A stretch of DNA of 64,000 nucleotides from Owenia fusiformis (taxonomy: Eukaryota > Annelida > Polychaeta > Sabellida > Oweniidae). Numbering within the stretch: position 1 is the stretch's first letter; every line of letters starts with the position of its first letter. The stretch covers positions 5,170,571 to 5,234,570 of the forward strand of contig CAIIXF020000011.1 of the NCBI GenBank assembly GCA_903813345.2, in the 5' to 3' direction. Positions 2,600-47,000 of the stretch are shown piece by piece. A model generated the notes under the pieces. It was not told the DNA's origin. It searched no databases and saw only the letters and a list, made by a program, of their open reading frames with translations. The position numbers and the translations under genes were made by a program.

Positions 2600-2743
2600 C
2601 ACATGTATATACAACATTTAGGTACTTTTGGGTTCCCCTAGTGCAGGGATCCCCAAATATTGCTTCACTTGCGGGTAAACGACACTTCCGTTTCCCATGG
2701 CAACGCTGCATCACTTCTTCTAGCGTGTAGTCTGATTGGCACT
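2600..2743 (-). CDS. EVA1C-like protein, exon encoding the C-terminal half of the second SUEL lectin domain
   Basis: The minus-strand exon begins after the acceptor TTTTTTAG and ends TGTG before the donor GTAAGTAC. Its phase-1 start joins exactly to the exon at 4105-4378, giving residues IECQSDYTLEEVMQRC across the junction. The exon encodes CHGKRKCRLPASEAIFGDPC followed by GTQKYLNVVYTC, the classic C-terminal signature of SUEL/rhamnose-binding lectin domains (FG-DPC-GT-KYL-V-Y-C). It ends in phase 1, so at least one more exon follows at lower coordinates or beyond the window. The product is probably a type I membrane protein that binds glycans or heparin. Two tandem SUEL domains argue for EVA1C/EVA-1 over latrophilin, which has one; a secreted rhamnose-binding lectin is the alternative. 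Confidence 0.85.
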
Positions 2744-3335
2744 CTAAAAAATAAACAAACAAAATTAAAATACTGGCGGGCATATCAATCATATCGATGT
2801 ATCAGTACACCTGTATCTTCTTGAAAATCAGAAAATAGGCTTGCACCATTAAGTATTCTCTTAAATCTTAATTGTTATATTAATATTAGTATCAAAACTA
2901 TTGTATTATTCTAGATCCTTGAAAGGTAGAATTTTACTGACTGGATTTGGGTGTGTATACAATATTTATAAAATCTTTATGATTTTGATTTGTATGAAAT
3001 AAGACTTTTACACTAATATAGATGTCACTGTGAAAATGATTCAAACAGAGTGGCTATACTACCAAGTAAAACATTATTTGAAATAAATGATTTGGTTAAT
3101 CCAAAATCATTAAAAATGTCACCATTCATGGGCTTACATGGTGATTCCTTATACAGTAAAACTTATGTATAATTGACATAAAATTGTCAAGAAAAAACAT
3201 TCCATGTTGGTAGGTGTTCATTACAGAAAGGAGAATTTATAAATAAGTCGATAGAGTTTGTGTGGAGGAAGGGTGTCCACTAGAGACAGGTGTTCACTAG
3301 AGAGAGGTGTTACTTTATTGTGAAATATATAGGGG

Positions 3336-3409
3336 TTGTGCACTGGGAGGTTTTGGATACAGGGAATATCCCGAGGGATATTCCATGTATCCAAACCGAC
3401 CGTGCATAA
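3336..3409. repeat. Long near-perfect hairpin
   Basis: Arms of about 35 bp (3336-3372 and 3375-3409) are nearly complementary, with GGAATATCCC meeting GGGATATTCC at the centre and TTGGATAC facing GTATCCAA further out. It sits in the 1,361-bp intron between two lectin exons. It may be the end of a fold-back element or a very short MITE. Confidence 0.8.
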
Positions 3410-3414
3410 CTGGT

Positions 3415-3750
3415 GTATCTCATACTTGAGTGGGTTTAGGGTAGATATAACCTTTCCCACCTTTTTCAAATGACAAGATATTTATATTTAACATTTTCGT
3501 AATATTCTTTTTGTTCAATACAATGAAATTGTAACATTTAAACTTAAAAAAAATTTAAAATTAAAAATTAAAACTTTTGATAATTTAACTTTTTTAAACT
3601 TTTGAAAAATTCCCGGGAGCGGGATGGATATAATATATCTGCCCGCATTTGGCCTGGAGCGGGACATATACAATATACCCTGCCCGCTCCTCAGATAGGA
3701 TATATATACCCGGGTGATATCTACCGCAAACCCACTCAAGTATGAGATAC
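3415..3750. mobile_element. Fold-back MITE with ~35-bp inverted ends
   Basis: The left end GTATCTCATACTTGAGTGGG is matched by the inverted right end CCCACTCAAGTATGAGATAC, and the similarity continues into GGTAGATAT. The interior is itself palindromic, with AGCGGG and CCCGCT blocks. A TA duplication (Tc1/mariner style) is possible but not certain. It lies in the intron between the 2600-2743 and 4105-4378 exons. Confidence 0.75.
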
Positions 3751-3754
3751 ATAA

Positions 3755-3893
3755 TTTTATCGTATGATATGTAAAATGAAGCCCTCTGATTGGTCAGCTC
3801 TTGTGTTGCACCAATCTGTTTTGCTTCTGAGATGGTCCCATTGGTACGGAGGGGACATTCTCAGTAGCAATACAGAGGATCACACGATAAAAA
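3755..3893. mobile_element. Short MITE-like inverted repeat (TTTTATCGTRTGAT ends)
   Basis: TTTTATCGTATGAT at 3755 is inverted at the right end as ATCACACGATAAAA. The roughly 139-bp element has CCTCTGATTGG in its interior. It directly follows another fold-back element, so the small lectin intron looks like a landing site for such elements. Confidence 0.6.
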
Positions 3894-3916
3894 CATTATA
3901 GAATGATTTGAAGTGC

Positions 3917-4011
3917 AATACATGATATATTCTGCTCTCGATATTCTGTATTGGCACTCAACTTCGTCTGGTTCTAATACAGAATTTCTCAAGCAGAATA
4001 TATCCTGTATG
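3917..4011. repeat. Double-stem hairpin
   Basis: Outer arms ATACATGATATATTCTGCT and AGCAGAATATATCCTGTAT pair, and inside them ATATTCTGTATT pairs with AATACAGAATTT. It lies 94 bp from the acceptor-distal end of the lectin exon. No function is evident. Confidence 0.7.
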
Positions 4012-4104
4012 TAAAAGTATGTTGTATTTGTATGTTTAGTATGCAGTTCACAGGGGCATGATGCAAGAGTTACCTTTATTGGATAAAATCTTAAATTCAA
4101 ATAC

Positions 4105-4378
4105 CTATTTTTGATCCTCTAGAAGTAGCGGGACATTCCAGTGTCCCATGCTCCCCTCTCCCAAACATGGCTGAATATACCGCTATACGTGTCGATTTTT
4201 CACACCATAATTGCATCTTCTCCCCTTCACATGTTATACGACTGTGGAATTCATTAGGTCGACATTTATAGGCAACCTCTAAATACTTGCTCGTCCCTCG
4301 GCAGGGATCTGGCCCAAATGTGGGGGTACTTGCTTGAACATGGCATTTCCGCTGGTCTTGGCATTCATCAAGCAGAAC
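4105..4378 (-). CDS. EVA1C-like protein, exon spanning the end of SUEL domain 1 and the start of SUEL domain 2
   Basis: The acceptor is CATGTTTTTCAG, the exon starts GTTCTGCTTGAT in phase 0, and it ends AAAATAG before the donor GTATTT in phase 1. At 274 bp it fits both neighbours: the 46765-47000 exon ends in phase 0 and the 2600-2743 exon starts by completing the split codon. The translation reads VLLDECQDQRKCHV, then FGPDPCRGTSKYLEVAYKC (end of lectin domain 1), then ITCEGEKMQLWCEKSTRIAV and MFGRGEHGTLEC (start of lectin domain 2). The family is known for heparin/glycan binding; in C. elegans EVA-1 is a co-receptor for Slit. Which partner is bound here is an inference. Confidence 0.87.
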
Positions 4379-4439
4379 CTGAAAAACATGGCAAATATAT
4401 TTATAGTAGTTTGAAGTAATAACATATAATTTAAATATC

Positions 4440-4953
4440 ATAACAAGGCACTTGGGAAGCTATATTCTTTAAATGAATGCTCAAAAATATTTCACATAGC
4501 AAACACAATACAGACATCTTGCTATCACCTGAAATAGGGAAAATACAATTCATAAGGAACTATAAGCTGAATATGTAGTTTTGCTAGGTTTGTACATGAA
4601 ATTTTGCAATAGTCATTCTTCTACTTGTATGCCCACCTTAAAGAAAGAAAAGTAGAAAAATACAACATTTCAGATGATATTGTTACAGCTTTACACAAAA
4701 ACTGCTTTAATTCGTCTTCATTCACTGGGATAACAAATGATTACTGATGAAATAGATCGAGTGTTTTAATAAAACACTATTATAGATTACAATATGTTTG
4801 TAGTTCAGGTATATAAGGTCATGTGATCTGACATTGAATTAATATTAATTCTTTAACTTTTATAATTATTAACCTGCTGATAACAAACCAAAAGTAGTTT
4901 TTGACCGAGGACTTTGAAACTTCACAAGGTTAGACTGTACAGGTAGTTGAACA
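4440..4953 (+). other. Upstream region of TRIM paralog 1
   Basis: No exon is seen here. The last ~110 bp resemble the corresponding region before paralog 2 (the shared sequence ATAATTATTAACC and a GACTTT stretch at 4905-4917). This places the left limit of the segmental duplication near 4850. The start codon context is ACAATGG, with G at +4. No TATA box is evident. Confidence 0.55.
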
Positions 4954-6980
4954 ATGGCGTCATATACAGAAGATCGTTATAAAACTGCTTTAACCTGCGG
5001 AATATGCCAGGACATTCTTACTGAACCAAGGGCATTGCCATGTATGCACACTTATTGCTTGAAATGCCTTGACAGCCTTACAAAGAAGGGCAAACTTCAA
5101 GGAGGATCCTTCAACTGCCCTGAATGCCGATATGTATGTACCATACCACAGGAAGGGGTTGGAGAGTTCCAGGTGAGCCCTACAATTTCATTCCTGGTTG
5201 ATGCCTATAAGGACAGTCAGCAGAGCCAAAAACCAGAATGTGATTCATGTCTTCGTTCACATGACAAACACACAATGGCCAAAGTCAGATGCCTCGACTG
5301 TAATAAACGATTGTGTACCATGTGCCGAAAAACACATGATGCACTGTTAGAAGGTCACAAACTACTGAACCTCACAGGAGACAGTGCAAAGGATTTACAA
5401 ACAGCACTAAGGTCAATAAAAGAGCAAACCGTGTACTGTCAACTGCATCCCACCAAGCCTCTAGACCTCTACTGTAAAGTTGATGAGATGTTGATTTGCT
5501 ATCAGTGCTATGCCACTAAACATCCTGGACATGCTTGCGAAGACATCAAAGAGACAGCTGCTAAGAATATGAAACCTATTGGAGCTGTTATATCACAGGG
5601 AAAGGGACTTGTGGATTTTTATGAGAAGGCCATTCAAGACACACAGGCTTATAAACATCAACTAGAACAAAATGCTGGAAAAGTAGCAGCTAAAATGATC
5701 AATGATATGAACAAGCTTATCCAAATCATTCGCAAGAGATATAATTCTAGCATTGAAAAGATGATGAAAGAAAAAGAATCAAATGTTAAGCAGGTTGTGT
5801 CCCATCTTGGCCACCTTGAGCTTCAAAGGGCCATCACTGAGGGTCAGGTGAACAAATACTGTACAATAGTTGAACATGGCCATCTTGTAGAGATTGCTGG
5901 CCTTAGAGAGCAAGTCAACAAGAAATCTGAGGAATGGTCAAACAAACCAAAGACCAACTTCTCTAAAAAATTGACTTTGAATTTACTGAGGGAAAATTTG
6001 GTGATGGTCTAGTTGAGATTGGAAAAGTGGCCACAGTGACTGTTAGAGAAGAAGGGGAAGACTATGATGTCCCGCCATTGTGTGAGCCAACAATAACAAG
6101 CAATGAATTGGACCTAAGTGTCATACAAGATTTAGCATCCAATCCTGGGGGTGACTATGGTGCAACAGAGGGAGTGGTAGAGGAAGACAATGATGTCCCG
6201 CCATTGTGTGAGCCAACAATAACAAAGAGTGACTTGCACCAAAGTTTGATAAAAGATTTAACATCCACTCCCGGAGGTGACTATGTTGCAACAGGAGGAG
6301 AATATTCCACAACCTGTATATATGATAGAAACCACAAGCTAAAGAAGGACTTGAAAAAAATATTTTCTCATGTAACCCTGACATATGACGAAACATTGGC
6401 ATTCACTGATGGCACCACCAACAAAATCAGTTTCTACAACACTGATGGCACTCATCAATGTGATGTGGTCTGCAGAGAGTTATCATCATTGCAGGGTATA
6501 GCAATGAGCCCTGAAGGGGAATTACTGGTGATAGATAGAAAGACCAAGAAAGTATACAGTGTTGATGAATCTACTGGAGAGTCCAAGGCACTAACAGGCA
6601 CATTCAATGATCCACAATATCTTGCTTGCAATAGTAAGCAAGTCAACATAATAAGTAGCTTCAATGGCCACTGCATTAGAGGAATAGCCAAAGATGGGAA
6701 AAAAGTCTTTACATATGGTGATTATGGAATCCAAAGCTCTGCTGATGGACATTTCCATTACCTACGCGGAGTTTGTAGTGATAAAGAAGATTATATATTT
6801 GTAGCAGACAGCTGCAACCACAGGGTCATTCTTCTTACGCCAGATGGCAGATTCCTGAGGAATATACTTACAAATGCTCATGGTGTATCCCTCCCATATG
6901 CAGTTGCAATTGGCAATGATGGCAAGCTTCTTGTTGGAGACAACAATGGAAAACTCTTCAGCATCAAGTACAGGGAATAA
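4954..6980 (+). CDS. TRIM RING/B-box/NHL protein, paralog 1, with a one-base frameshift
   Basis: A predicted E3 ubiquitin ligase of the TRIM-NHL class. RING: C15, C18, C30, H32, C35, C38, C55, C58. B-box 1 spans about 96-135 (C96, C99, C113, C116, C121, C124, H128, H135). B-box 2 spans about 162-193 (C162, H165, C174, C182, C185, H190, H193). A coiled coil follows, about 200-320. The frame runs to a stop at 6010-6012, but alignment with paralog 2 shows one base missing at the A6 run 5965-5970. After a -1 shift, 6015-6980 stays open and encodes the linker and NHL propeller, with typical blade motifs such as VADSCNHRVILLTPDGRFLR. The linker is duplicated (42 codons, from 6066 and 6192). There is no filamin domain, unlike TRIM2/3/71. 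The open second half argues for an assembly error or a very recent mutation; otherwise the gene makes a propeller-less RING/B-box protein. Confidence 0.85.
6066..6317 (+). repeat. Intragenic 126-bp tandem duplication in the TRIM linker
   Basis: GATGTCCCGCCATTGTGTG occurs at 6066 and again at 6192, exactly 126 bp apart. The two 42-codon units both encode DVPPLCEPTIT followed by a similar DL(A/T)S(N/T)PGGDY stretch. Paralog 2 has a single copy plus a longer acidic run. The duplication keeps the frame. Confidence 0.85.
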
Positions 6981-7084
6981 GGTAGATTATCAATTCCTCT
7001 TACAGCTTAAAATTGATGCCATTAGTATAGAATCTATGATCTTTAAATCTGGATAAGATATAAAGAGGAACTTGCATGTACAAC

Positions 7085-7303
7085 ATAGGCATAGCCAGGG
7101 GAGCGACCGCACCCCCTGACCAATAGAAATATAACCATGAGATAGAAGAAGAAAAGAGCTTTAAAATGGTTTTTATTTGAAGCTTCTAGCTCAATTTTGA
7201 AGGAAGTTGCATCAATTTTTGTAAAATTCAAGACAAATCTTAATTTTTTGGCTTGTTTTTGCCATAATCGCACCCCCTGACTGAAAGCTGGCTACGCCCC
7301 GGT
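7085..7303. mobile_element. MITE with GGCRTAGCCAG ends in the UTR intron
   Basis: The left end GGCATAGCCAGGGGAGCGAC is mirrored by CTGGCTACGCCCCGG at the right. CGCACCCCCTGAC appears in the same orientation near both ends, which is unusual. It resembles the CAGGCC family ends but has a different interior. No clear target duplication was found, and the element is absent from paralog 2. Confidence 0.6.
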
Positions 7304-7369
7304 ACTATATCATTACATGCTCATATCTTATCTATCCTTCGAAATATAGTTAATGCATATTGGTAATAA

Positions 7370-8700
7370 GGGGTACTTTCTTAACATGCATATATCTTCT
7401 CGTACATTGTAGGCACTTGTACCTTTGTGACCATTGATCAAAATGAAAGTTATGAAAGTATATGCTTTGGTAATTTTGTGCCATCTTTGACTTGTTAATT
7501 GACAGAGCATCTATAACACATATATTTAAATTGTTCACATTTGACAAGAGTCTTAGCTTAAGGTGATGAAGATAGTGGGGCAAAGCTTTCAAAAAATCAA
7601 ATTCTGATGCATTCTACATTATGTGCTTTGGTACCTTTGTGCCAATTTGTCTGTTGATGGGAAAAACATCTATGAGTATAAGAGAAGCATTAAAATTGTT
7701 TCCATTGTGACAACAGTCTTAGTTTAAGGATGGCATTTTTATAGCATACACACCTTCTACATTATATGCTTTGGTACCTTTGTGCCAATTTGTCTTGTTA
7801 ATGGGCAGAAGATGTATAACATTTTGACACATACATCTTCTACATTATATGCTTTGGTACCTTTGTGCCAATTTGTCTTGTTAATGGGCAGAAGATCTAT
7901 AACATTTTTGACACACACATCTTCTACATTATATGTTTTAGTACCTTTGTGCCGATTTGTCTTTTTAATGGGCAGAAGACCTATAACATTTTTGACACAC
8001 ACATCTTTTACATTATATGCTTTGGTACCTTTGTGCCAATTTGTCTTGTTAATGGGCAGAAGATCTATAACATTTTCGACACACACATCTTCTACATTAT
8101 ATGTTTTGGTACCTTTGTGCCAATTTGTCTTTTTAATGGGCAGAAGACCTATAACATTTTTGACACACACATCTTTTACATTATATGCTTTGGTACCTTT
8201 GTGCCAATTTGTCTTGTTAATAGGCAGAAGATCTATAACATTTTTGACACACACATCTTCTAAATTATATACTTTGGTACCTTTGTGCCAATTTGTCTTG
8301 TTAATGGGCAGAAGATCTATAACATTTTTGACACACACATCTTCTACATTATATGCTTTGGTACCTTTGTGCCAATTTTTTGTCTTGTTAATGGGCAGAA
8401 GGTCTATAATATCTTTGACACACTAATCTTCTACATTATATAATTTGGTACCTTTGTGCCAATTTGTCCTGTTAATGGGCAGAGCCACTATAAAAGTCAC
8501 ATTTAAATTGTTCCTATTGTGACAACAGACTAAGCTTTATGATGGCATTTTTATAGCATGCGCATATACTTCATCATATGCTTTGGTACCTTTGTGACAA
8601 GGTATCTTGTCAATAAGCAGAACATCTATAAAACAATATTTAAATTGTTCCCACTATGGCAGTCTTGGTTTTTAGAGGGTACATTGTAGGTATTTGATAC
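7370..8700. repeat. 84-bp minisatellite within an older ~145-bp repeat
   Basis: The core, about 7752-8475, has nine or so units of 83-86 bp containing GGTACCTTTGTGCCAATTTG and GGGCAGAAGATCTATAAC. Two unit types alternate between 7940 and 8275 (CTTTTTAATGGGCAGAAGACC versus CTTGTTAATGGGCAGAAGATC), giving a 168-bp higher-order repeat. On both sides lie longer, diverged units with an extra TTTAAATTGTTC and GATGGCATTTTTATAGCAT segment, so the 84-bp unit looks like a deletion derivative. Because 84 is a multiple of three, long reading frames stay open on both strands; they are not genes. Confidence 0.88.
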
Positions 8701-8768
8701 TATTGTAACAATGGGTCTTGCCATTAAATGAATGGGACTTTCATAACATAGTACTTTCTGATTTGCAG

Positions 8769-9455
8769 GCATTCTTACCATGAGGACAAGGGGTCTCACT
8801 GGCGGGTCTGGTCCATGGGGGCAACACCCCTCCCCCCTAGGGTGGGCCATGAAAAAGATTTTAGGGCCCCAAAAGCTTTAGGGCCAAAATTTTTGTATGG
8901 CCTCAAAAATGAATATTTTGGGTCTTTTTAGGCCAAGTTATCAAATATGGGCCTTACATTTTCAAAATTTTGGGCCAACATTTTCCTGACTTGGAGTGTG
9001 GGCCCCCATTGTTAGCTTCTGGATCCGCCAGTGAATCTATCAACAATGACAAGTTCTATCTGCAACTTTGAGTTCTACATACTGCACAGCAACTTAGATG
9101 TCCTAGAGGTGCCAATATATTAAGAGACTATGGCTAAATCATAAAATTAATTTTACTTCAACTGATTACAGAACTTTTTAAAACAGACTCTTGAGGGTGA
9201 TGAATGTAAACATCTGGATGTATGTTAAAAAGAATACATTTCCTCAAAATAAGTAACAGTACATTTCCAACAAGATAATACAAAATATGGAGAAATCATA
9301 GATTTGCCAGTTATTTTAAAACAAGTTACTATTCAAAGACATAATTTGAGAGACATACGTAGCTCACTATTGAACTTTCTGGACCAGCATTGAATGCTTC
9401 CCTTAATTTTTTTTCTATATTTGTAATTCACATAATTACATTTTTATGAAATAAA
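8769..9455 (+). other. Candidate 3'-UTR exon of TRIM paralog 1 with poly(A) signal
   Basis: Starts GCATTCTTACCATGAGGACA, matching the candidate 3' exon of paralog 2 at 20491. Similarity continues through TGCAACTTTGAGTTCTACA to AATAAA at 9450-9455, which aligns with AATAAA at 21245-21250. A 237-bp MITE interrupts it. It is probably non-coding 3' UTR. Confidence 0.55.
8797..9033. mobile_element. MITE with CACTGGCGG inverted ends
   Basis: It starts CACTGGCGGGTCTGG and ends CTGGATCCGCCAGTG (inverted). Paralog 2 provides the empty site: GGGGTCT runs straight into GTCAACAATG there. Flanks GGTCT and AATCT may be a mutated 5-bp duplication. A fragment of the same end occurs at 27433. The superfamily is probably hAT, by end sequence only. 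Confidence 0.8.
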
Positions 9456-9936
9456 CCGTATTTGACTCTATACCTGAAAAACACTGTCAAATGTTACATA
9501 ACATGATATTTGTCATTCTATGGTATAGCTTCAAATATGGCAAATATCAAACAATCACAAATATATCACAAACAATCACAAATACTATCAGACTATATTC
9601 ATCAAGTTATTATTAAAAAAGGGTACAGTATATGTGGTATAACAACATTGTATTTCATATGGTCTATCCAACAAGCCCTTCTACCCCCTTTCCTCTCAAA
9701 CATCAACTCATAAGGGGAGATATAGACAATGGGGGGGGGGGGGGGGGGAGTTGCAGAAGCTTAACCCAAGACTGTGTTTTATAATTTGAAACAGGATATT
9801 TTTGTTTGAGAATTTTTTGGAGAATTTTTCATGTTAGCCAGCCTTTGACATTTTAAGTCATACATACATAACAGTTGATGCTCAATAAAGCGAAATTAGT
9901 TTTTTGTTATTTTGTTATTATCTAACATTAGGTATA
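9456..9936. other. Spacer, no gene seen
   Basis: The first ~100 bp still resemble the paralog 2 flank (TTTGTCATTCTAT near 9511), marking the right limit of the segmental duplication at about 9.56 kb. A poly-G run of about 17 bases lies at 9732. Nothing else is recognised. Confidence 0.5.
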
Positions 9937-10244
9937 ATAGTCAGAAACCCATGCCTCTCTATCGTTTCAAAAAATTTACCCAACGTGTTCGTCTCTGTTA
10001 ATTTATGGCATCCATACTTTTTTGAAAGGTAACACTTTGAGGTTCAATTTGCTGCCGGATGCCCTTGCAAACTCTCATTGGTTGCTCTGTATTGTAGCAT
10101 TCCGTTACCATGGTTACGCATCTATAAACATCTTACCTTGGAATCTTAGATCATTTGTAACTTTGTCATTATTTGGTCTATAGAGATGATATTGGTATCA
10201 AATTAAACCTAATTAGATTCCCCATAAACTAATGATATTCAATT

Positions 10245-10280
10245 ATGCAAATTAGCTCATTTGCATAAATTGTGACGTCA
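10245..10280 (+). promoter_or_regulatory. Inverted octamer pair plus CRE-like palindrome
   Basis: ATGCAAAT and its inverse ATTTGCAT are 6 bp apart, followed 6 bp later by TGACGTCA. These match the POU/octamer and CREB/ATF consensus sites. The same arrangement recurs at 10618-10653 and, inverted, at 15774-15809 (TGACATCA) and 16146-16181. It is part of the repeat-arm sequence; regulatory activity is an inference. Confidence 0.5.
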
Positions 10281-11013
10281 TCAATCAATTTTTGATTCAG
10301 AATTTTCAAGTATAGCAACATATCTATTAGAATTGAGGCCATATGTCAGAATTTCTGCAAAGTTTGGTCCTTTAGTCTATAAGAAGAAGGTATAAGCAAC
10401 ATAAAAATGAAAACAGATTCAAAATTGGATCAGTATTACCAAAGTTATTAAACTTTCGAGGAAGCTACTGTGAATGTCATTATTTGACAATTATATTCAG
10501 ACATCTTACTATGGAAGTTTAAAATGTTTGTAGCTTTGTCATTATTTGGTCTATAGAAATGATATTGGTATCGAATTAGACCTTATTAAATTTCATGTAC
10601 GATTACAATGTTCAATTATGCAAATCAGCTAATTTGCATAAATTGTGACGTCATCAATCTATTTTGTTCAGAATATCCCAGTTTAGCAACATACCTATTA
10701 GAACTGAGGCCGTATGACAGAATGTGTGCATAGTTTTGACCTTTATTTGATGAGTGGAAGATATATAGGCAACATTGAAGAGACAACAGATTCAGAATTG
10801 GATCAGAATTAGCAGTTATTCAGCTTTTGGGGCAGCTACTGGGAACGACAATTATAAAAAGTTTTACAATAACGAAAAAAGAAACAAACATTGTTGCTTC
10901 AATCTTATTGAGTAAAAATGTACATGACTTGTTCATATTATTCCATTGAACTGAACATGTAAGTATGTGGAGATGTTACATGTATTTTGACTATCATTCA
11001 CAGGGGTCAAAAT

Positions 11014-12801
11014 CGTGTGATCTCGATCCTGCATTTTAAAATCCAATTTTATAATTTACCATACACTGTCAATGATTCATATAAATACATAGTAATGCTT
11101 TAATTATGCTATTTTGACATATGTTGACTAGTATACATATTAATATTTACAAAAATTATATGGAGGAGTGTTCTTGGTTTAATTTGATTTCTAACATGTG
11201 AAAAAGCTGAAAACAAAATTTTGTTGATATTTGGACATAAGCTAAATACACCTTAATTACCATTTTATATTCAAAATACAAATAGAGTGTCAATTTTACA
11301 ACTTGTGTCAAGTATTGAGGGAGTCACATCACACCCCCCAGGATGCATTCCTTTGATGGAACTGTCACACCTAGGCCTTGTAGCTCAGTGTATGCCACTG
11401 TGTGAATACTTTCCGGCAGATGGTAGGGTAAAGGGTACTAATATGATAACTACTTCAGGGGAATTTTGTAACCTTCAAAATCCTTGGTGATTCAATGAAA
11501 TAGCCACGAAGAAAAAATGCCCTTTAAAAGAAGTGATATTCGTAGGACTTTAAAGATGCATTATGCCATAGGTTTCTCCCCCAGACAATCAATGATGTCC
11601 TATTGTTATTGCTCATATAATATCTCACATACCATGGACATATCTTGAGAATAGCTTTTAGGTATATTATTGCCGAAATATCGGAAATAATCAACAGAAC
11701 AACCAAACTCCAGAATTAAACACAATCGATTCCTCGGCTAGCGAGGGGAATCCCCATTGAGTCACACAAGCGCCTTGAACCAGGCAGGCAATCAGGTTTA
11801 TGATAAATAGATTCAACGACCAATCAGATAACAGGATGACTTTCCTGGTATATTCAAACTTCAGATTGAATTAATTTCTTCGAAAATAATTAGATCAGCC
11901 AGCACAATCGCAAAATTAACACTGAAAGGGGGGGATTTGGGACTACTTCTTTGGTAAGTAGATATATGTGGTGAAACTCAATATGCAAAAAAGTCCAGAG
12001 GGGTCTTGATTGTGTTATCCTATGGCATAGAGCCTCTTTAACTAACCCTTCCTATATCTATATACATGTATAGGTTTCCTACATCTCCAATGGAAGTATG
12101 TGTGGTATGGAACTTATTATCTAAACTTGTTTTAAAAGGTTTCCAAAATATGAAATATGTACAAATCTATGAAAAATATGAGTCTCAAATGGATGGATTT
12201 CAGGTTTACCCCCATAGAGTATGGATACCATTCAAAACTGAGAACAGTAACAACAGGAGATTTTGGTGCAAAATAAAGGAGTTAATCACGTAGCATGATT
12301 GACAGAGGTTGAATCAAACTATTTTAATATACTTTTGATAGTTTAGAAGCTTTAATATGGCATGAAAATAGCATACAGTATGTAGTTTAGGGAGCAGAGA
12401 TATTATTTCATTGCATGGATTTAAATTATTTTCAGACAAGGGTTTCTGAAGATCTAATCAATATAACAGATTATATCAAAAACAAGGAGATTAATGTCAC
12501 ACAGATGATATTCGAGAGTCAAATCACACTGGTGAGGTGAACATGGAGATCAATGTGCATGACAAAGATGATGGATACATTAAGAATAAAAAGCATCCCT
12601 GTCATGAAAGTTACCACTGAAATAGATACAAAAGAAAAACTCAACCACTGCCATATAGGTTCCGGACATGGATAATGATACATGAAGATTATAGCATGAA
12701 TGAAATCCATATAGGTGATGTTAACGCAGATATCAATGTCACATGGATGACATGGTGATAAATCGTTAATTTGTTCAAAGTTACACTATAAAGGTGATGT
12801 A
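11014..12801. other. Interior of the long-armed element, no gene recognised
   Basis: Low-complexity A+T-rich sequence with short chance reading frames (60-75 codons). A stretch GGCCTTGTAGCTCAGTGTA near 11375 resembles a tRNA A box, but no B box follows at the right distance. Confidence 0.5.
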
Positions 12802-13867: not shown

Positions 13868-14027
13868 TAAGTCACATGGAAATCAGTAATACTTGGATGT
13901 AGGAACTCTTGGGTTCACTAGGGTTCACACAAGTCCTCACTATTCATTTCTACGCTTCATTAACACTTAATATAAAAATGCAATACTATCTATGAACTAT
14001 AATAGCTTGGTATGATAAATAATACTA

Positions 14028-17146: not shown

Positions 17147-17230
17147 TAGGTTTATTTTATGGCCAACATGATATTACAGTTTCTGTTACATTCAACATGC
17201 TTGTTTTTATCATTTCCAAATACAAATAAA

Positions 17231-20117: not shown

Positions 20118-20118
20118 G

Positions 20119-36181: not shown

Positions 36182-36368
36182 CAGGCCTGTAGCCAGGGAG
36201 GGCTACGAGAGCGACCCGTCCCCCTCCTGGACAAAAATTCTTTCAAAATCATGCAGTTTTTCACCATTCCAAGTACTTACCAAGTAATTTTGGCCACTTT
36301 TGGGTAAAAGTGAACCCTCCCCCCTGGAATTTTTTAAAATGTGAACCCCCTTGGTGAATCCTTGCTAC
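36182..36368 (-). mobile_element. CAGGCC-family MITE, right end decayed
   Basis: Starts CAGGCCTGTAGCCAGG. The interior AAAATCATGCAGTTTTTCAC and GTGAACCCCCTTGGTGAATC are kept, then it fades after CCTTGCTAC. Confidence 0.75.
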
Positions 36369-37473
36369 AACTACTATCTTATTCAAGAAAATACATAGTT
36401 CTTTACATTTTCCATCCTTCATTCAAAGGGCTTCATCTATTTCTCATACAATACATGGAATTAAGTGGAATACCCAATGATGTACATTTTCTTCTAAAAT
36501 AATTTTAAAACATGTGAATATAAATAACAAAGATACTTATTCATTGTAAATGGGGGGGGGGGGGGGGGTGCAAGCGCGGAATGCCCCCCCCCCCATTGTT
36601 GGTTTTAAGATCCACCCCTGTATGTTTATTCAAATCAGCTTGACTTTTAACTTTTTGTTTGATCATGAATTTGATTGATAGTTTCTCATATGAGCAGAGA
36701 AATGAAAAAATCTGAATTCTGACTTGTCAAGATCTATTTATTCATTGCATTATATTCCTTTTTGTTTACTTGACATCTCTCACCTTTAATTTTTGTGAAA
36801 TAAATCAGACGAGAATATTTTTTCAATTTTCATGAGTTTTAAATTACAGGACCTGAGGTTAAACATGATTTACATTTCGTTTTAATTAAAAGCCAAATCC
36901 TGATAGAGACAAGAGAGGCAACATGGAACCATTATATTTTCCAGAATACTGATGCATGATTGGTCAATATATATCACATGATCAATTTCAGAATTATGGG
37001 GAAGTACCTATTGCTTTCAAGTATCTGTTAATGAGACCTCAAGAGGGCCGCTCTATCCTATTAGGGAAATCTAGAAAACATATTTCACAATATTTGTTTC
37101 ATTTTTGAGAAACTTCTATTCTAATGATGCTGACTTCATAACACATCTTAATTTACTACTCCTTTTAGGCTTTCCAATAGGAAAAAACTATGAAGGCTTC
37201 TACCATTGGAAAGCCAAGATATCTATCATTATGCAGCTCCATTTTGCCCAAAAAATACATAGTCTAATTTCATCATCTTCCAAAGGAAAAACATAAGATA
37301 CAGTCATATATCACCTACTCTATATCATCTGAATGCCATACTATATAAATATATTGATGCAAAAACATCCTCTAGCCAGTCTTCCCTCTACCCCCCCCCC
37401 CCCCTTCTCAATTTACTAATCTGGCCTTATCCCACCATATGATCACTGTTTTAATATGAGCCAATTTCCTTAA
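36369..37473. other. Spacer, no gene recognised
   Basis: Poly-G followed by poly-C around 36552-36595, ending in AGATCCACCCCTG, may be a remnant MITE. Nothing else is recognised. Confidence 0.4.
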
Positions 37474-37766
37474 CCTCTTGAATACCCAGAGTGACGGATA
37501 TATCCGTCACAAATGAAATAAGACTGGTGCCCAGAGGGACGAGAAAATCCGTCACAAAATTTTTCATAAAAATTGCTCTCATTTGAACAATTTTCATCCA
37601 ATTTACACAAAAATTGTTTTAAAACGTGTAGAAATGATCTCTGCCGTCCAATTTTACTAAGCTGAGCATCTAAAGTTGTATAGGTATGTAATAAAATGTC
37701 AAAAGGTGGCAAAAAATGAAAAATTCTCTGGTTTCATGCCAATTTTAGAGCCTGGGATTCAAGAGG
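37474..37766 (-). mobile_element. TTAA-flanked piggyBac-like MITE, copy 1
   Basis: TTAA flanks both sides (37470-37473, 37767-37770). Ends CCTCTTGAATACCCAG and CCTGGGATTCAAGAGG are inverted. The interior has GTGACGGATATATCCGTCAC, itself a palindrome. Two further copies, at 52039 and 60740, lie in the opposite orientation. TTAA insertion is the hallmark of piggyBac; the assignment rests on that. Confidence 0.82.
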
Positions 37767-39294
37767 TTAATGGTCATCTTTCCTTACCCTCAGGGCCTAG
37801 TAATAAACATAGGTAAAGATCTTGAAAAGGGTACTTCTCCTCCCCCAGGAGCTGTTCATTTAACTTTCTTGGAAAAGTCAATCAAAAGTCAATTTAGTAA
37901 GCCAATAATCCTAGCACTATAAACCATATGAACTACAAAACACTAAAACTCCACTAAAACATACTTCAAAGGAACATGGAAAGCAATCATAATGAAAATG
38001 AAATAAAATTCTTCACTACCTTATTCCGATGGTTGTCATGGCAATAAAAACTCCACAAAACTGACATAAACATTCAATTTTATGATATTACTTAACGCCC
38101 ACCCTATGGGCGAAATGACTCTTTGACTTCCCTTTCCAGTTAACAACTAACTCGAAGATTTCCTCTAATATCTTTTAACGATTGTAATATTTTTTGTTAG
38201 AAAATTTCCAATTTCTAAGATTGAGTCTGCATCTAAACTTCCCAGAAACCAGAATGATTTATTTTCTTTACCCGGTAAACAATTATTTTGGCGATGTTCA
38301 ATTTGCGTCATATTAGTTCTTTATTTATCGATTGTGACTTCACAATTCCATTTATTTGATCAGATTCCATTAATCCACGAAAGATAATCGTTACCGGAAA
38401 GTTATTCTTCTTTTCCAGATAATATCCTTAGAAGTAATAGTTTTATGTATTTATTTCTTTTTTTATCAATCTTACTGTTTTAAGTATTTTGTCTCTGTCT
38501 TCTTCACTGAATTTCAGCTCTTATTCTATGATTTCTACCATTGACTTTTTATTTGTTTAATTTCCTATTGATCTTATTATATTTTATTCCTCCCTTGTTT
38601 TTATAGTTGTCACAAAAGCTCATATCATAAGAGGTTGACTTTGTGTGACTAACTGATTGGTTTCCAAGGCAACCTTTTTCTATCTATGGTTCTAATCTCC
38701 TTGACTACTGGAATCTAGGCCAAGTGACCACTGGCGACTGATGACTAAAATTCTAAGAGACCATGTAGACTAAAATTCCCATGATGTTTTATATGTCATT
38801 AATTTTACCAATATCCCCATTTGCGCAGCTGGTGCCAAAATCTTTTCTTTGATGGTTGGTACCTTATGGGTGACTAATGTGATTCCTATAGCAGACCAAC
38901 TAGCCTGAGGGTTACCATGGTGACAGCAAACACATGTGGCTAAGAACTGAGGGGTGGCTCCAATACTGTTCAGAAGGCAACCAAAAATATAGATAACAAA
39001 TGCATCATAATCAGGGGACCGAGGGCAGACCCATATCCGATCGGGGGGGGGGGGGGAGGGGGGGGGGTCACTTTAGTACCTAAACGTCTGGGAGGTTGTT
39101 GGGAGGTTAGAAAAATCCCAAAGATTCTGAGAGATCCTGATACTTTCCAGGGGCCCATTTTCCAAAATTACAATTTTAGTACATGTATTTCCATTTCATT
39201 TCATGTAAAGTACAATCTCAATTTTCACTTATCTATACATATATACATATATATTATTTATCACAAATACTGATTAAAATAAAAACAGGGCATT
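37767..39294. other. Spacer, no gene recognised
   Basis: A poly-G tract at 39043-39066. Otherwise A+T-rich sequence without recognised structure. Confidence 0.45.
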
Positions 39295-39425
39295 AACATG
39301 CAAAATGTCACCACCTGCCATTTGTTACAGACACCAAACGAAGACTGCCAAACGCTGAACAACACCTGCTTAATACCAGCCGCCAAGCATCATCTACAAA
39401 AGGTTGGACACTATAACAGTATGTC
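39295..39425 (+). repeat. Dispersed ATGTCACC-family repeat, copy 2 of 4
   Basis: AACATGCAAAATGTCACCAC, GCCATTTGTTACAGACACC and CATCTACAAAAGGTTGGAC occur in family order. A 72-codon frame over it is incidental. Confidence 0.7.
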
Positions 39426-40977
39426 AACACTCCTGGCGGTGACTGAATTCATACTTTTTGAAAAACAGGTCCCAGAATCCCTGCATATAAATGGTACACC
39501 CCTGGTGCATTATTGAAAGTGAAAGGTAATGTTAACCAATGTTGGTGTCACCCATAATTAACCCCATTTTCCTAAAATACCATCACAACACACCAGAACC
39601 ACATCAAAGTGATTCCACAGACCACCAAATGGAAAATACAATTTAGACTTTTTTTTATAAAATGTTGATATCAGACTGTTTTATTTTTATTGTTTCTATT
39701 TGATATTCTTTCATAAGATTAATTGTTAAGTTGAAATCTACTTGACTTAGTATCTATTATTCAAGTATGCCTGTTCTTTGTCATCATATAGAGAGAAGCC
39801 AAACCAGTCTTCTCCCCCTCCCCCTCTACCCCCCCCCCATAGAAAATAAGGGGCCAAAATATAACTATAAATGCCCAGAATCTAAGGGCCAATCTTAGAA
39901 TCTTTGAGTATAGTGACAGAGAGTAAGTAGGTATTTTGGAGAATTTACATGTAATTCATATTTTTTGTCTCTTTAAAAAAATGTTGGCCTTCAGGAGAAT
40001 TATGAAGAAATAGGCCTTACTGAGTAAATCAAAGCCAGTTTTTATATACCTAAAAATGACTGGTCCCTGGCCCCTAACTTTAATATGTCTACATTTGAAT
40101 TAAAGTAAAAAATACGTAAATATTAAAGTTGGTTTTGACACCATCGATCATTTCAAGATAATATGAGATAATGACTTATGAATAAAAAAAAGATTTTGTG
40201 TATGTCAAAAAATACCAATCTATTGATTTTTTTTTTGAAATATACATGCATTTTTACATATTTTAGCAAATGAATATTTCACTGTATATTTAAAGTCACA
40301 TTGATGAACAAAAATGAAGTGATGAAAAATAGTGGTAAAAATAAACACCTTATAATGGTGTGTACATGTAGTAATTTAGAAGGAGTGGGGGGGGGTTCTA
40401 GTCACAGAAGCTATAGCTTGTAGCTAGACTAAGATGAAACTGTATTTTAAAGTAACTCCAATGCAGTATATATATATTATATATGACCAATTTTTTTTAC
40501 ATCAATGTGTGTATAACCATGGGCTTGCAATGCTCATAATAGAATTTTTTGGGAGTTGTATACTCTTCATCTGAAAGCCCATGATATAACTTGGCATAAT
40601 AAAATTAGCAATCCTTTAGCCTCATTTTTAAATCCCCTATAAATACTTTACAGTCACAATCCCCCAAAACAAGTATCTAATTTTATCTACCCTGTCCCCA
40701 AATAACAAACTTTTAAGGATTTGCAGATAAAAGAATTGGCAATCAAAAGATCTTAAAGTGCAACTTGAAAAGTCCTTGACAAAACAATGAATATAAGTTA
40801 CATATATTTTGGACACATTCAACAATTAAATCAACATCATTTTGCATTTATTCAAGTTTGAGGGCATTCGGGGAATATTTTGGCAGTGGTCACTCACTAA
40901 TATGTCATTTGTAAATACAAGCTATAAAAGAGAGATTTTATGCCAATTTCTTCTTTCTAGTCATGTTTTTTCACACT
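39426..40977. other. Spacer, no gene recognised
   Basis: A+T-rich; a short TTCTAGTCACAGAAG...CTAGACTA inverted unit lies at 40396-40431. No exon-like frame. Confidence 0.45.
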
Positions 40978-41140
40978 TTTTCTCTCTAAAATTTGAATGA
41001 ACTGCCTGAATTTCTTACATTTCTATACAATTTTGAGTGTTAACTACATGCCTGTTTGGTTTATTCCTTGCTAATTTCACTCTTTTCACCTCTATTTTAC
41101 AGTTTAAAAATGACCATTCTGAATTTTTTCTAAGGGTTGC
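40978..41140 (+). repeat. Dispersed ~165-bp repeat (GAATGAACTGCCTG family), copy 1
   Basis: TTGAATGAACTGCCTGA, TTTCTATACAATTT, TACATGCCTGTTT and ATTCCTTGCT occur in the same order at 44098-44258, and the last part also at 35414. Confidence 0.75.
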
Positions 41141-41286
41141 CTTTCAGGAAAATGAATTATTTTAATGATTATATGTTGTATTATAATGATTATGACAATA
41201 CTTATTCTACAAAGTTTCCAGTATTCTATTTAAAGTTGAACTTAAATTCCAACACTTTCATTTCCATTTATACACTTTCAGAGAAT

Positions 41287-41596
41287 TACCCTTTGCATTC
41301 GTTTGACCTCACTTCTTAAAAGAGAGCTTCATCTTCACTCTTTTAGTTTACAATAAATCTTTGAACTCACCGAGAATTCACCATTCAGAGTTAGTTGTCG
41401 AAATACGGACGACTTTCACATGGTAATTGCGCCTGAGCTTGCTGATTGGTTGAGAAAAATCAGCATGATAGGTTTGAAATGATCTAGATCCCGCGGCCCG
41501 GGCTGTCATGACCATAGGTCATGGGGGGAGGGGCTGCTAAACTGTAATATAGTCTATATTAGGCAGAGGGTAGTTTATAAGACTGTGCCCAGGGTA
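41287..41596 (-). mobile_element. TACCCT-family Mutator-like MITE, full-length copy
   Basis: Starts TACCCTTTGCATTCG and ends GTGCCCAGGGTA. The 9-bp flanks TCAGAGAAT (41278-41286) and TCAGAGTAT (41597-41605) differ at one base. The interior includes CTTAAAAGAGAGCTTC and ACCAATCAG-type sequence. Confidence 0.8.
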
Positions 41597-41605
41597 TCAG
41601 AGTAT

Positions 41606-44097
41606 CTGTGCACTGGACTGGCATCTGGACTACAGACCTTCTGATTACATAACATTGAGTTAAGAATTCAGGAACTTATGTTTCATTAAATAATTATTTA
41701 GTAATTGATACATTATGGATCATGTCTGGGGGAGAAATGATGTAATTAGTTGGTAATTACCACTTAATTATAAATATGGAGATTATTTGAAACATTAAGA
41801 TTTGATGTATGATCTAGTAGACAGCTCCCAAGAAATATATGTGTCAATATTGTAAAATGAATTAAAATTGCAAACTTTTTGTCTTGCCATAGATGCATTC
41901 TGAAATTCATAGCATCTTTCTGTTTCACCTGAAATTAGATGAAATATGAGCTGGGATGAAAGATCTCAAAAATCCTCAATTTTGGGCTCTTCTAGATCAC
42001 CAAATCAAGCTCATTATATCATAGCATCTCAGGGCTGAGAAGATTTGAGATGTCATGGTTTATCATGATGACATTGATGCAATAATTATAAAAATACAGA
42101 TTTTAGATGCTTTGTGTTAATGACATGAAAGTAGTTATTGTGGTCTATAAAATTTGGAAAATAAGAGCCAGCTACCTGTGAAATCTGAAAAATTTAATCC
42201 AAGAACCGAGGATCACCTCTCATCCAAAGAGTGTAGATGAAACTCCCTTTTAAGGGAGCAAATTCACAAACTATAGCAAAGGGTATATCAACCACTGCCC
42301 ACACACAACATCAGAACATTCAGAACAGCAGGTCCATTTCAACTTTTGGTCACAAAGTGAAACCACATCCACCACAAAAAGGGAAACTCAAACTGTCAAA
42401 CTAGAATGTTTACTGATAAATTGTTCAAATTAGATCGAGTTTTGTCCAAAGTTTATTTTTGACATTTTTTCAGCTGGTTGAATATAAAACCAAAGTTGCT
42501 CAGTTTGTAATTAAAGCCTTGGTTTCTAATTATAGTCATCAAGCAGGGAGTACTTGGGGTTAATTGTTTTTTAAATATAATGTACCAATTTAGTGTTTTG
42601 TTCACCAAAAATATTTGTTTCATTGCCCTGTTTTTAATTTTTGAGGAAAGATTGATCAGTTTTTTCAGGCTGTTCAATTCCCAAAGCTGTAAATGCAGTA
42701 CTAGAATATTTCTATTTAGTGTTTTGTTTTTCATGATCAATTTCTTCCCATTTTACCAGAGTTAAAAAGTAGATTACAGCTACCTATATACTCCATTGTC
42801 TCCTAAAGGAAAAACACTGTGAATAAATGAGAAACAAACTTTTATGTATTTTTAAAACTATATCAACCCCGTTGATTGAAACACCTTGTAGAACACACCA
42901 AAGACCAATAGCCTGATAACCTCATGTTAAATGACCCTCCGTAAGCAGAACACCTTCCTAGTAGAAGACTTTTTGACATGCATACCAAAAGTGTTCAACT
43001 TACACAGGTTCTACACAGATTTACTGTACCATTAGAAAATCTAAAGGTTCCAGTAATAGTGAAAAATTTCACTATATAGTGCTGCCATCTTTACTCAAAA
43101 CAATAATCAAACTAACAGAACATGAAAAGATATTATTATATGATTAAAGATTTCATAAAATAAGACCATATAACAGGTTTCTTTATCAATGCCAAAACTG
43201 AACAAAAACATCGAAATTAAAAAAACATATAATTACGGAGGAGAACTTTTAGAGTGACACTGATTCCCCTATTGAATTGATACAGTAGATTTTACTCCCA
43301 GGGAGGTGTGAAAATGACAACTGAAATTGATATATGCATTTGACTCGCAGTCATTTTCCTTCAAGTTTTTTTGTAATAAAAACAACTATTTTGTAATGAC
43401 TTTTAAAGTTGGTGCAATAGAGTGCCTGATATTTAAGAAACTTTGACATTTATCAATGGCATTATAACAGTATAGGGGGTCACGCCCTGAGTCATCAAAT
43501 TACAGAAATTGTGTATTTCTTTAAAGTTAATGAAAATATAAAACTGGTGAATAGGATATGAGATCACTGGGAGGTATATTCTTATATGAGGGTGTGTCAG
43601 AGAACAGGTCGGAAGAAAAGGATCACAAAAAAGGATGACACTGGTAGAAAAAGATGATACAAGTAGACAAAAAGATGACACCAAAAAGATGACAGTAGAT
43701 TGCACTTGTTCAGTGTCATATTTTTATACTTGTATCATTATTTTTCACAAAACATCATTCTTTTACTGTTAGTTCTGGCTTGTTAGTCAATTTCTGCCCA
43801 ACAAAAGTGGACTTTGCCAATGTCATACCTAGGGCTATGTCGTAACTTGGTTCACATGGTACATGTACCTACAGTTTCAACCTGTATAGTATACCACATT
43901 CGAAGTCTAAAAAGAAATATTTCAAACACTGTCTCTTGAAGAAATCTCTAGTTAATTAGAATTGGAAAAAACTTCACAACTGATCCTAAATTCAATTTGA
44001 CCATCAGTAAAACAGAAATGTAAACATCTACCCTACAAACTGGTCTATGTATTTATTTCCTTGGTAGAAAATCTCATTATTGCCCACTTTATACTAT
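41606..44097. other. Spacer, no gene recognised
   Basis: A fragment related to the TACCCT family (AACTCCCTTTTAAGGG, then GCAAAGGGTATAT) lies at 42230-42290. An A+G-rich stretch (AAAAAGATGACA repeated) lies at 43610-43690. Frames up to 95 codons have no domains. Confidence 0.45.
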
Positions 44098-44258
44098 TTT
44101 CTCTTAAAGTTGAATGAACTGCCTGATTTTCTTGTATTTCTATACAATTTAGAATATCCACTACATGCCTGTTTACTTTATTCCTTGCTGATTCCACTCT
44201 TTCCCACTCTATTTTGCATTTTAAAACTTGACCATATAATTTTCTTAGGGTGTATATT
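44098..44258 (+). repeat. Dispersed GAATGAACTGCCTG-family repeat, copy 2
   Basis: Matches 40978-41140 over its whole length with moderate divergence (AAAGTTGAATGAACTGCCTG to TTTAAAACTTGACCAT). Confidence 0.75.
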
Positions 44259-44689
44259 ACAATATTGAGAGGCCTTTATTTATGCCAATACACATCACAA
44301 GTTCTTCTCAATCCATTTGTACAAAATAAGAATAGATGAATGAACCTCAGTTTGTATTCAAAACAATCCAGATTCTATTGAGGTTGATTCACCTGTATGA
44401 ATCTAGTGAAGAACTCCCTTGACGTTTTTTTCTTCAAATTTGAGCTTCAAGAAACCACGAAACCATTACCAAATTATAGTTTCTGTGGCTGATTATGACA
44501 AACTATGAACTATAATTATAGAGAGATGAAAATATCAATTGTGAAACCCTATATTTCAAGGTTCATGTGTATGAAACTAAATATGTATTAAAAATAAGTG
44601 AAAGAATTTTGGGTGACTTTTTTCAAAGGGTTCGTAGTTGTGGTTAGTTTTGTGGTTAAAGGTGTTACTTTTGAAGCTACTTCCTTACT

Positions 44690-44985
44690 GCTCTCTTCCT
44701 TACTCCCTTATTCACCTTCTATCCCCCATTCCCCTTCTTCCCCATCCCCTTTTTCTCCTTATCCCTCTTCCTATTCCCTTTCTTTCCCATCTCAATATTC
44801 TTCTTCCCCACCCCCTTCTTCCCCATCCCCTTCTTCTCCCTCTTCCCCATCCCCACTCTCCTTCTCTCCCTCCCCTTATTCCCCCTTTCCACATTCCCAT
44901 GTTCTCCCTATTTCCCCTCCCTTATTCTCCTTCTTCCCATCCCCCTATTTACTCTGTCCTCACCCTCTCAGCCCTCAATACATTT
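44690..44985 (+). repeat. ~290-bp polypyrimidine tract
   Basis: Almost all C and T on the plus strand, built of CCCCTTCTTCCCCATCC-like words. The minus strand is correspondingly G+A-rich. Frames of 117-164 codons over it are low-complexity Ser/Pro/Leu runs and not convincing genes. Confidence 0.9.
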
Positions 44986-45092
44986 TTCTAGATAAATCTA
45001 GATCAATTTCATACAAATGTCTCAATTTTCCTTTTTTAAATGCTGTCACTGGGAAAGATGCATTATCATTTCTAAGAATCTCAGCAAAATGA

Positions 45093-45480
45093 GATTATAT
45101 GAAATTATATGAGATTCCAAGTCACCAGGTGATACTTTAAATCATATCAACATCTCCATGCTTTTTAATCTCCATAAAAAACAACCATCAACTAAATCAC
45201 AAATTCCTATAAAAACATCACTTTTATGTGGTTCTACCAGCTTGTAGTTCCCACAACATTTCCCAGGATCAACACTTGGAAATAAATCTAAATAAATATA
45301 AATCTCCAGCCAAACATAAACTTGTGGCTTGCACCCTGGTCAACACACAAAGATGAGAGGGTATTCTATTGTAATTCCACAACACCATGTTGGGTCTCGG
45401 GGGAGGGGGGATACAAATATTATAATGAAGCAATAAAGGAGTCTACTAATTCTGTCCATATTATCACCATCAATCTCCTA
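45093..45480. other. Spacer, no gene recognised
   Basis: A+T-rich, with a small G run at 45400. Nothing recognised. Confidence 0.4.
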
Positions 45481-45488
45481 GGTTACTA

Positions 45489-46064
45489 TAGTGGTGTCAA
45501 TTAACCGCTTGAGCATTAACCGGTTAACCGGGGGTTTTTACCGGTTAAAGTCGGTTAACCGGCGGGAAATTTGAACTTATAATTTTAAATGAAATCTTCA
45601 TCTTCGATCTTGAAAGTTGAAAAGATAATATATCGGCGTTTATTTTTTACGTTCGTCAAGCTTTACGCTATTCTATGTAAGTAAGCGCGGGAAAGCAATG
45701 TGGCAGGGATTAAAGTTGCTGATTGGATGTTTGTAAGGAATTATCGGACCTATCACATGTATGAGTAGCTCACATGAAACTGACGCTTGAAAAACAAACA
45801 GATTAAAATGCAAAGTAAGCGCGGGAAAGCAATGTGACAGGGATTAAAGTTGCTGATTGGATGTTTGTAAGGAGTTATAGGACTTATGACATGTATGAGT
45901 AGCTTACGTGAAACTGACACCATAAAACCAAACGGATTAGCATGCAAAATAAGCGCGGAAAATAACAGAATTATACACGGTCAACTAACCGCCCATAAAA
46001 ACTCAGACCGGTCAAGGCATTATCGGCGGTTAACCGGTTAACCGGTTAATACTTGACACCTCTA
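45489..46064. mobile_element. Non-autonomous hAT element with 8-bp target duplication
   Basis: Ends TAGTGGTGTCAATTAACCG and TTAATACTTGACACCTCTA are inverted. Perfect GGTTACTA duplications lie at 45481-45488 and 46065-46072. Both subterminal regions are packed with CGGTTAACCG words. The centre is a ~132-bp tandem duplication (AAGTAAGCGCGGGAAAGCAA, twice, from about 45680 and 45812). No transposase frame. An 8-bp duplication plus TAG-type ends supports hAT. Confidence 0.9.
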
Positions 46065-46120
46065 GGTTACTATGACTTCTTACAAATAGGCCTCTCTCAT
46101 GTAAATGCCTATTTGACAAA

Positions 46121-46174
46121 AAGGGAATTTTCTAAAAAGTGACCCCCCCTGGTAAATCCTGGCTACGGGCCCTG
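46121..46174 (-). mobile_element. CAGGCC-family MITE end fragment
   Basis: TTTTCTAAAAAGTGACCCCC to AATCCTGGCTACGGGCCCTG: only one end remains. Confidence 0.7.
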
Positions 46175-46764
46175 CAGCCCATATGAAATATACAGGGAGG
46201 GAGGGGGGAACCAGATACATAAAGAAAGATTAGGAAGGGATCTGTACACTACCTGCAAATTCTCAATCAGATTAGAAGACTCCCAGAGTTGTAAATAATA
46301 AGATACCAGAAGTAAACAGTAAACACCCCAGAATGTGTGAAAAAATACTGACCAGTACTGATAAACTCTGATAAGAGTCTTAGATGTCTGATTTAAAGGC
46401 ACTTGTCTTGCCTAGGGTGTCTTTAAAGGCCATTTCCTTTGATAAGCCCCTTGCCTCAGATGTGTGGTTCCGAAGCCCTTGTCTTAAATATTATGCTTAA
46501 AGGCCCTAGCCTAGTATGGACTAGTGTTTTAAATATATAGAAGCCACTTCCTTAATCTCTAACTTAAGTTGCTTTTTAGTTAGATTTTCTGCTTAAAGAC
46601 ACTTGCGTAGTATAAATATAGCTTTGACATGAAGATCCTTGTCTCAAATATTTTTTGATCTCTGGTCTTAGATGTCTTTCTTATTGCATAATAAGTGGAC
46701 AAAACTAGCTGCAATGACAAAAGAATATACCATCATGACATTTGACTTAAAAATCTAAACTTAC
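46175..46764. other. Intron sequence next to the lectin exon
   Basis: Recurrent words such as CACTTGYCT and GGCCCTAGCCT suggest an old tandem repeat at 46395-46660. No exon recognised. Confidence 0.4.
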
Positions 46765-47000
46765 CTGGAGGGATGATGGTGATATGCAGTTTGTATCTTC
46801 ATTCCAGTTGACCTTGACATTTGAACTATGTTGACCTTGACCCCCAGATGACCTTGGAGGGCAAAGTTGGTGACTAGGAATTTGGCGGCCATATTGGGCG
46901 AATTGCACACTGATCGTTGTCCCCTCGGGACACCTTATATGGAGATGATCACCTTCACACGCACGTTCTTGGAATGTGAATAAAGTACTAGAGAGAAGTC
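46765..47000 (-). CDS. EVA1C-like protein, exon encoding the N-terminal part of SUEL lectin domain 1
   Basis: The acceptor is TTTGTGATTTCAG (exon from 47000) and the donor GTAAGTTT follows CCTCCAG at 46765. The 236-bp exon starts with two bases of a split codon and ends in phase 0, matching the phase-0 start of the next exon at 4378. It encodes ERACEGDHLHIRCPEGTTIS, then VQFAQYGRQIPS and VKVNWNEDTNC, which fit the start of a SUEL/galactose-binding lectin domain (CEG--L-I-C and YGR motifs). The preceding exon, which must end in phase 1 and should carry the signal peptide, was not found between here and 64000. In animals this receptor type acts at the cell surface in Slit/heparin binding; that role is inferred. 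Confidence 0.87.

Follow-up and report, generated by a model that had tools for sequence, protein, structure and literature searches.

The 64,000-nucleotide (nt) stretch of the Owenia fusiformis genome analysed here (contig CAIIXF020000011.1, positions 5,170,571 to 5,234,570; hereafter the window) holds part of a minus-strand gene encoding a predicted EVA-1-type receptor, one intron of which contains two plus-strand copies of a TRIM-NHL gene, here called TRIM1 and TRIM2. TRIM2 (18186..20117) is an intact single-exon gene of 643 amino acids with RING, B-box and NHL domains, and upstream of it lies a 24-nt element that recurs in front of dispersed members of the same family. TRIM1 (4954..6980) is frameshifted and is without this element.

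Three exons of the host gene fall in the window, all on the minus strand. Exon 2 (46765..47000; AG/GT flanks, phases 1 and 0) encodes the first part of SUEL domain 1, exon 3 (4105..4378; phases 0 and 1) the rest of that domain and the start of SUEL domain 2, and exon 4 (2600..2743; phases 1 and 1) the remainder of the second domain. Read as 47000-46765, 4378-4105 and 2743-2600, they join in phases 0 and then 1 into a single open frame, as a preliminary description of this DNA had proposed. A Pfam search of the joined peptide gives two SUEL stretches (E 3.4e-40), the first of them complete (profile positions 1-80) across the 42-kb junction, which bears out two further claims of that description, namely that the SUEL domains are continuous and that the large intron (intron 2, 4379..46764, minus strand, 42,386 nt) splits domain 1. 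Beyond the window, the full model comprises seven minus-strand exons over about 90.7 kb (1641 nt, 546 amino acids) and is open throughout, with two tandem SUEL stretches (E 9.9e-39) and six introns of 31746, 42386, 1361, 12318, 430 and 839 nt, all GT-AG and with matching phases. Exon 1 (78828-78747 in window numbering, minus strand), the best-scoring of four candidate rows, encodes a signal peptide by hydropathy and sits 31.7 kb upstream of exon 2, while exons 5-7 (minus strand, between -9719 and -11892) would supply a basic linker, the membrane span and a tail. Having been picked by simple scores and by eye, exons 1 and 5-7 are less certain than exons 2-4.

The nesting would disappear if exon 2 belonged to another gene or if the intron contained an assembly join error, and the donor of exon 3 (TAGGTATTT), with a low score of 3.2, might be taken to point that way. 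We consider this very improbable, since exons 2 and 3, in phase and correctly ordered, together make up one whole SUEL domain, the seven-exon open frame passes through both, and the window has no N bases. Exons 2-4 are also without near copies elsewhere: eight genome matches were obtained, three being these exons themselves (90-98% identity) and five reaching 28-56%, with exon 2 the sole near match to its own sequence in the genome. As predicted sequence anatomy, the host gene, its exon joining and the nesting within it are real.

EVA1C proteins have a signal peptide, two SUEL domains and one membrane span. The host model is supported as an EVA-1-type receptor by this same predicted plan, with a single membrane span in exon 7 (hydropathy peak 2.82 over 19 residues), and its 12 Protein Data Bank matches are lectins and latrophilins. 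A FAM176 match at the membrane span (residues 388-436, E 0.0002, 21.7 bits) stays below the cut-off of 31.5, and POP1_C, an unrelated model, reaches 19.9 bits (E 0.0009) at the same place, also below its own cut-off. An exon-by-exon genome search for FAM176 returned nothing over the cut-off, and elsewhere only a weak match on contig 6. The EVA1C name given to the host in the preliminary description thus agrees with the domain plan and is not proved.

Both TRIM coding regions lie wholly inside intron 2 of the host on the opposite strand, TRIM1 beginning 575 nt from host exon 3; a tblastn search of the window at E 1 yielded no third copy. Profiles zf-RING_UBOX and zf-B_box pass curated Pfam cut-offs in both copies, while the coiled coil is weak (TRIM_CC, 18.4 bits versus a cut-off of 30, in TRIM1 only). 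The NHL region is in the main frame of TRIM2 (E 3.9e-12), where one NHL stretch scores by itself, and a profile built from 12 family members matches the solved NHL domains of the known proteins TRIM71, TRIM2, TRIM3 and Thin. In TRIM1 a one-nucleotide frameshift splits the reading between two frames near 5967, and the NHL repeats fall in another frame than the RING and B-box. The two copies are sisters with support of 100/99 in a 15-row tree and 100/100 in a 54-row tree, and were therefore probably duplicated in place. Two plus-strand TRIM genes had been reported in the intron; both copies are indeed there on that strand, and the frameshift and absent promoter element of TRIM1 mean that the pair is better read as one gene and one probably decaying copy.

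The selective history of TRIM1 is less simple than its broken frame suggests. Between TRIM1 and TRIM2 the ratio of non-synonymous to synonymous divergence (dN/dS) is 0.15 before the frameshift and 0.47 after it (dS 0.50 and 0.34). Compared with four family copies on contig 2 (L006, L007, L008 and L009), however, TRIM1 and TRIM2 are both less constrained in the second half (0.315-0.411) than in the first (0.125-0.186), so that 0.47 is only slightly high. Both copies could still be functional if the TRIM1 frameshift came from misassembly or were polymorphic, or if it left a useful protein without NHL repeats, which we regard as possible but doubtful. Open frames lie on both sides of the frameshift, and other family matches likewise end early, with short open frames of, for example, 344, 390 and 408 codons. 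On the other side, TRIM1 is without the family element, its upstream sequence is unlike that of the family past about 90 nt from the ATG, and its branch in the 15-row tree is longer than that of TRIM2 (0.19 versus 0.093), though gene conversion may inflate this length. TRIM1 is probably a recent pseudogene by these sequence features, or at most yields a truncated RING/B-box product.

The flanks of TRIM1 retain a limited resemblance to those of its sister. Its upstream sequence has no match at E 0.01 to 12 family upstream sequences, and its likeness to the TRIM2 upstream covers 65 aligned positions beside the ATG (local alignment score 41, shuffled maximum 32); downstream the likeness covers 69 positions (score 36, shuffled maximum 31). 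In view of this flanking homology to TRIM2, a retrogene origin of TRIM1 is no more than possible.

TRIM1 also looks mosaic. At family-alignment codon columns of about 90-150, its third positions match L006, L007 and L009 at 0.87-0.97, compared with 0.57-0.70 for its sister TRIM2 and 0.53-0.73 for L008. The longest identical run between TRIM1 and L009 spans 44 polymorphic sites and was reached in 0 of 500 permutations, in a test that ignores rate variation and that the TRIM1-TRIM2 pair exceeds too, elsewhere in the alignment (42 sites, 0 of 500). The pattern suggests gene conversion between chromosomes. Separately, the TRIM1 linker carries a 126-nt (42-codon) tandem duplication at 6046-6297, present as a single unit in TRIM2.

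TRIM2 belongs to a large and dispersed family. Searched against the genome, its protein gave at least 80 match rows (69 of 431 candidates scored), merging into at least 67 loci, many of which consist of one open frame of some 630-650 amino acids. Upstream stretches were taken from 64 of the 67 loci, leaving out partial or split matches at 28.36 Mb of contig 9 and at 7.43 Mb and 10.34 Mb of contig 7. The 54-row family tree, which covers those of the 64 loci for which a coding stretch was taken (none of the other 10 carries the element), separates a clade of 36 (support 100/100) from the other 18; it carries a long-branch warning, and the position of one element carrier, L033, is unsure. Members of the clade of 36 lie on seven contigs of chromosome scale and on a small one.

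The element itself, GTTCTNAGAACTGNTTAACATAAA, occurs in 10 of 13 upstream sequences compared. The copy in front of TRIM2 (17849..17872, plus strand) is a perfect match with the STAT-like core TTCTGAGAA, and starts 337 nt upstream of the ATG. With up to 2 mismatches allowed, the genome contains 23 matches to the element, compared with 2 for a reversed-pattern control. Of these 23, 21, including all 11 exact ones, lie at a distance of 53-1164 nt in front of a TRIM-NHL match on the same strand. Ten of the 23 belong to the copies used to derive the element, and 11 of the 13 matches outside this source set are likewise upstream of a TRIM-NHL match. When up to 3 mismatches are allowed, 22 of the 64 upstream stretches carry the element (one stretch, that of L023, was taken 1.4 kb long, its match being known already). 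The core TTCTNAGAA is kept in all 22 carriers and occurs in 24 of the 64 stretches, whereas shuffling gave a mean of 1.6 and a maximum of 5. Among 14 de-replicated copies the element columns stand out against their flanks, though coding dS is often above 1, and the TRIM2 upstream and those of the four contig 2 copies give alignments of 228-479 nt at 77-81%. The upstream stretch of TRIM1 is without the element. At L023 (contig 11, 27825428) the element lies 1164 nt upstream, the other 20 lying at 53-332 nt; an intron in the 5' untranslated region may account for this distance.

All 22 carriers fall within the clade of 36, and none among the other 18. On the 54-row tree the distribution needs 9 changes, at least 7 of them forced by the starred branches, so that one gain followed by repeated loss is likely. 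One copy without the element, L006, has an intact frame; absence of the element alone is therefore no proof of a dead copy.

The core TTCTNAGAA conforms to the STAT site TTC(N)3GAA, a spacing that passages of PMC1698493 describe as bindable by STATs 1, 3, 4 and 5, and a STAT gene is present in the genome (four exon matches over the cut-off, contig 1 at 53.98 Mb). STAT control of TRIM2 is putative on this basis; an E3 ligase activity of its product is likewise putative, as is an immune role, if it has one. TRIM2 is most likely an autonomous unit, perhaps immune-inducible, that would merely be located in the intron. A wider and more tentative reading is that the clade of 36 paralogues, 22 of them with a near-private 24-nt module and STAT palindrome, might form an annelid TRIM-NHL regulon of which the nested TRIM2 is a member, an invertebrate counterpart of the interferon-stimulated TRIM genes. 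Because it is nearly confined to TRIM-NHL upstream regions, the element offers a testable handle on the control of a large invertebrate TRIM family, bears on whether TRIM genes come under STAT control in animals other than vertebrates, and may help to separate live copies from dead ones. Nothing on either the locus or the element was found in the literature searched, which does not show absence, and the relevant passages of PMC9977687 contain no TRIM protein; within the limits of this literature search, the promoter module is the part that we have not seen described.

We regard it as fairly probable that the intron of this EVA-1-type gene would hold a self-contained TRIM2 and a decaying TRIM1, with an order of events as follows. 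A copy of the dispersed, largely single-exon TRIM-NHL family would have arrived in host intron 2 on the opposite strand and then duplicated within it. The downstream copy, TRIM2, would have kept the family promoter, including the 24-nt element with its STAT-type palindrome, and would fire from this promoter head-on to the host, its product being a putative TRIM-NHL E3 ligase. The upstream copy, TRIM1, would have been left without the family promoter and frameshifted, and would probably make no full protein any more. Host transcription would read through both copies, and splicing would remove them. As the nested coding regions overlap only the host intron, their coding parts, untranslated regions aside, cannot pair with mature host mRNA. 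The host model, the nesting, the intact and broken frames, the sister relation and the family-wide element are read from the sequence, and from them we infer the order of events and independent transcription.

Several observations weigh against parts of this account. Fourteen of the 36 clade members are without the element in the stretch searched, and with all 22 carriers in one clade the element may be no more than a sign of common ancestry. Two of the 23 genome matches (L068 at 993005 and L069 at 24561026, both on contig 2) are not near a TRIM match, the best adjoining tblastn hit having an E of 0.004 over 40 residues; they may be chance, the control also having given 2, or other genes using the element. 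The motif TTC(N)3GAA alone is frequent by chance, occurring in 37 of the 64 upstream stretches against a shuffle mean of 13.6. TRIM1 is stop-free in 333 codons past its frameshift, whereas in simulations without constraint, branch lengths of 0.05, 0.1, 0.17 and 0.25 changes per site left 174, 43, 14 and 0 of 1000 runs stop-free, respectively; the copy was thus probably constrained until recently, and misassembly or polymorphism could account for its frameshift. Splicing and transcription, moreover, are predicted throughout.

The preliminary description had further suggested that convergent or overlapping transcription could couple or silence the host and nested genes, so that one of them might be silenced or co-regulated. 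The nested genes do lie on the strand opposite to the host, and passages of PMC3192792 report that, in human cells, the splicing of a host can be disturbed by genes nested in it. The promoter element of TRIM2, however, is typical of a dispersed family and also occurs at sites on other chromosomes, and in the fly tim2/2mit pair the host and nested gene are apparently unrelated in function according to parts of PMC3786989. The suggestion is unsupported, and we think coupling unlikely.

Frames of 232 and 221 codons, one on each strand, run open through an 84-nt tandem repeat of 8.7 copies (7748-8483) in the intron, since 84 is divisible by three; the repeat is probably not a gene. Between TRIM1 and TRIM2, inverted repeat arms of 580 nt (9937-10516 and 15910-16489; 89% complementary, 5.4 kb apart) could be transposon ends and might form a fold within the host pre-mRNA. 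No known RNA families or tRNA genes were detected in the window at tool thresholds.

The contig of the window, contig 11, appears to be chromosome 8 of O. fusiformis. Thirty-eight forkhead matches fall on contigs 1, 3, 4, 5, 6, 8, 9, 10 and 11, with none on 2, 7 and 12, and these contigs are chromosomes 1, 2, 3, 5, 6, 7, 8, 11 and 12 if contig order follows chromosome names sorted as text. The same nine of 12 chromosomes bear forkhead genes in this species in passages of PMC9539403, which also place foxQ2 tandems on chromosomes 5 and 7 and foxC with foxL1 on chromosome 11. Under this correspondence our matches, untyped as to Fox class, group on chromosome 5 (four in 16 kb), chromosome 7 (three in 20 kb) and chromosome 11 (two 30 kb apart).

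Antisense nesting in introns is ordinary and well known. Vertebrate interferon-inducible TRIM genes carry STAT-type sites in their promoters, and here too TRIM genes have such sites, with the difference that the STAT link comes from the palindrome alone. Like the EVA-1/EVA1C Slit receptors, the host model has a signal peptide, two SUEL domains and one membrane span, but it differs in its FAM176 match under the curated cut-off and in its long basic linker. The portions of PMC3503706 that concern TRIM-NHL proteins place TRIM2, TRIM3, TRIM71, Brat and Mei-P26 in Subfamily C, and put on record an intronless TRIM gene and rapid TRIM expansion by tandem duplication. The nested copies likewise have RING, B-box and NHL by profile; they differ in belonging to a largely single-exon family with at least 67 loci in the genome, and in having one NHL stretch that scores alone. 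Some 6% of fly genes lie in introns according to passages of PMC3786989, which also describe 2mit in the Drosophila tim2 intron, an antisense coding gene with functions apparently unrelated to those of its host. That case involves one nested gene kept among Drosophila species, whereas here there are two tandem copies of a dispersed family. Similarly, the LRRTM genes in alpha-catenin (CTNNA) introns of vertebrates are opposite-strand genes in a large host intron, and in the parts of PMC3933685 that treat them most jawed vertebrates retain the pairing, in contrast to the present locus, which is described from one species and has one nested copy broken.

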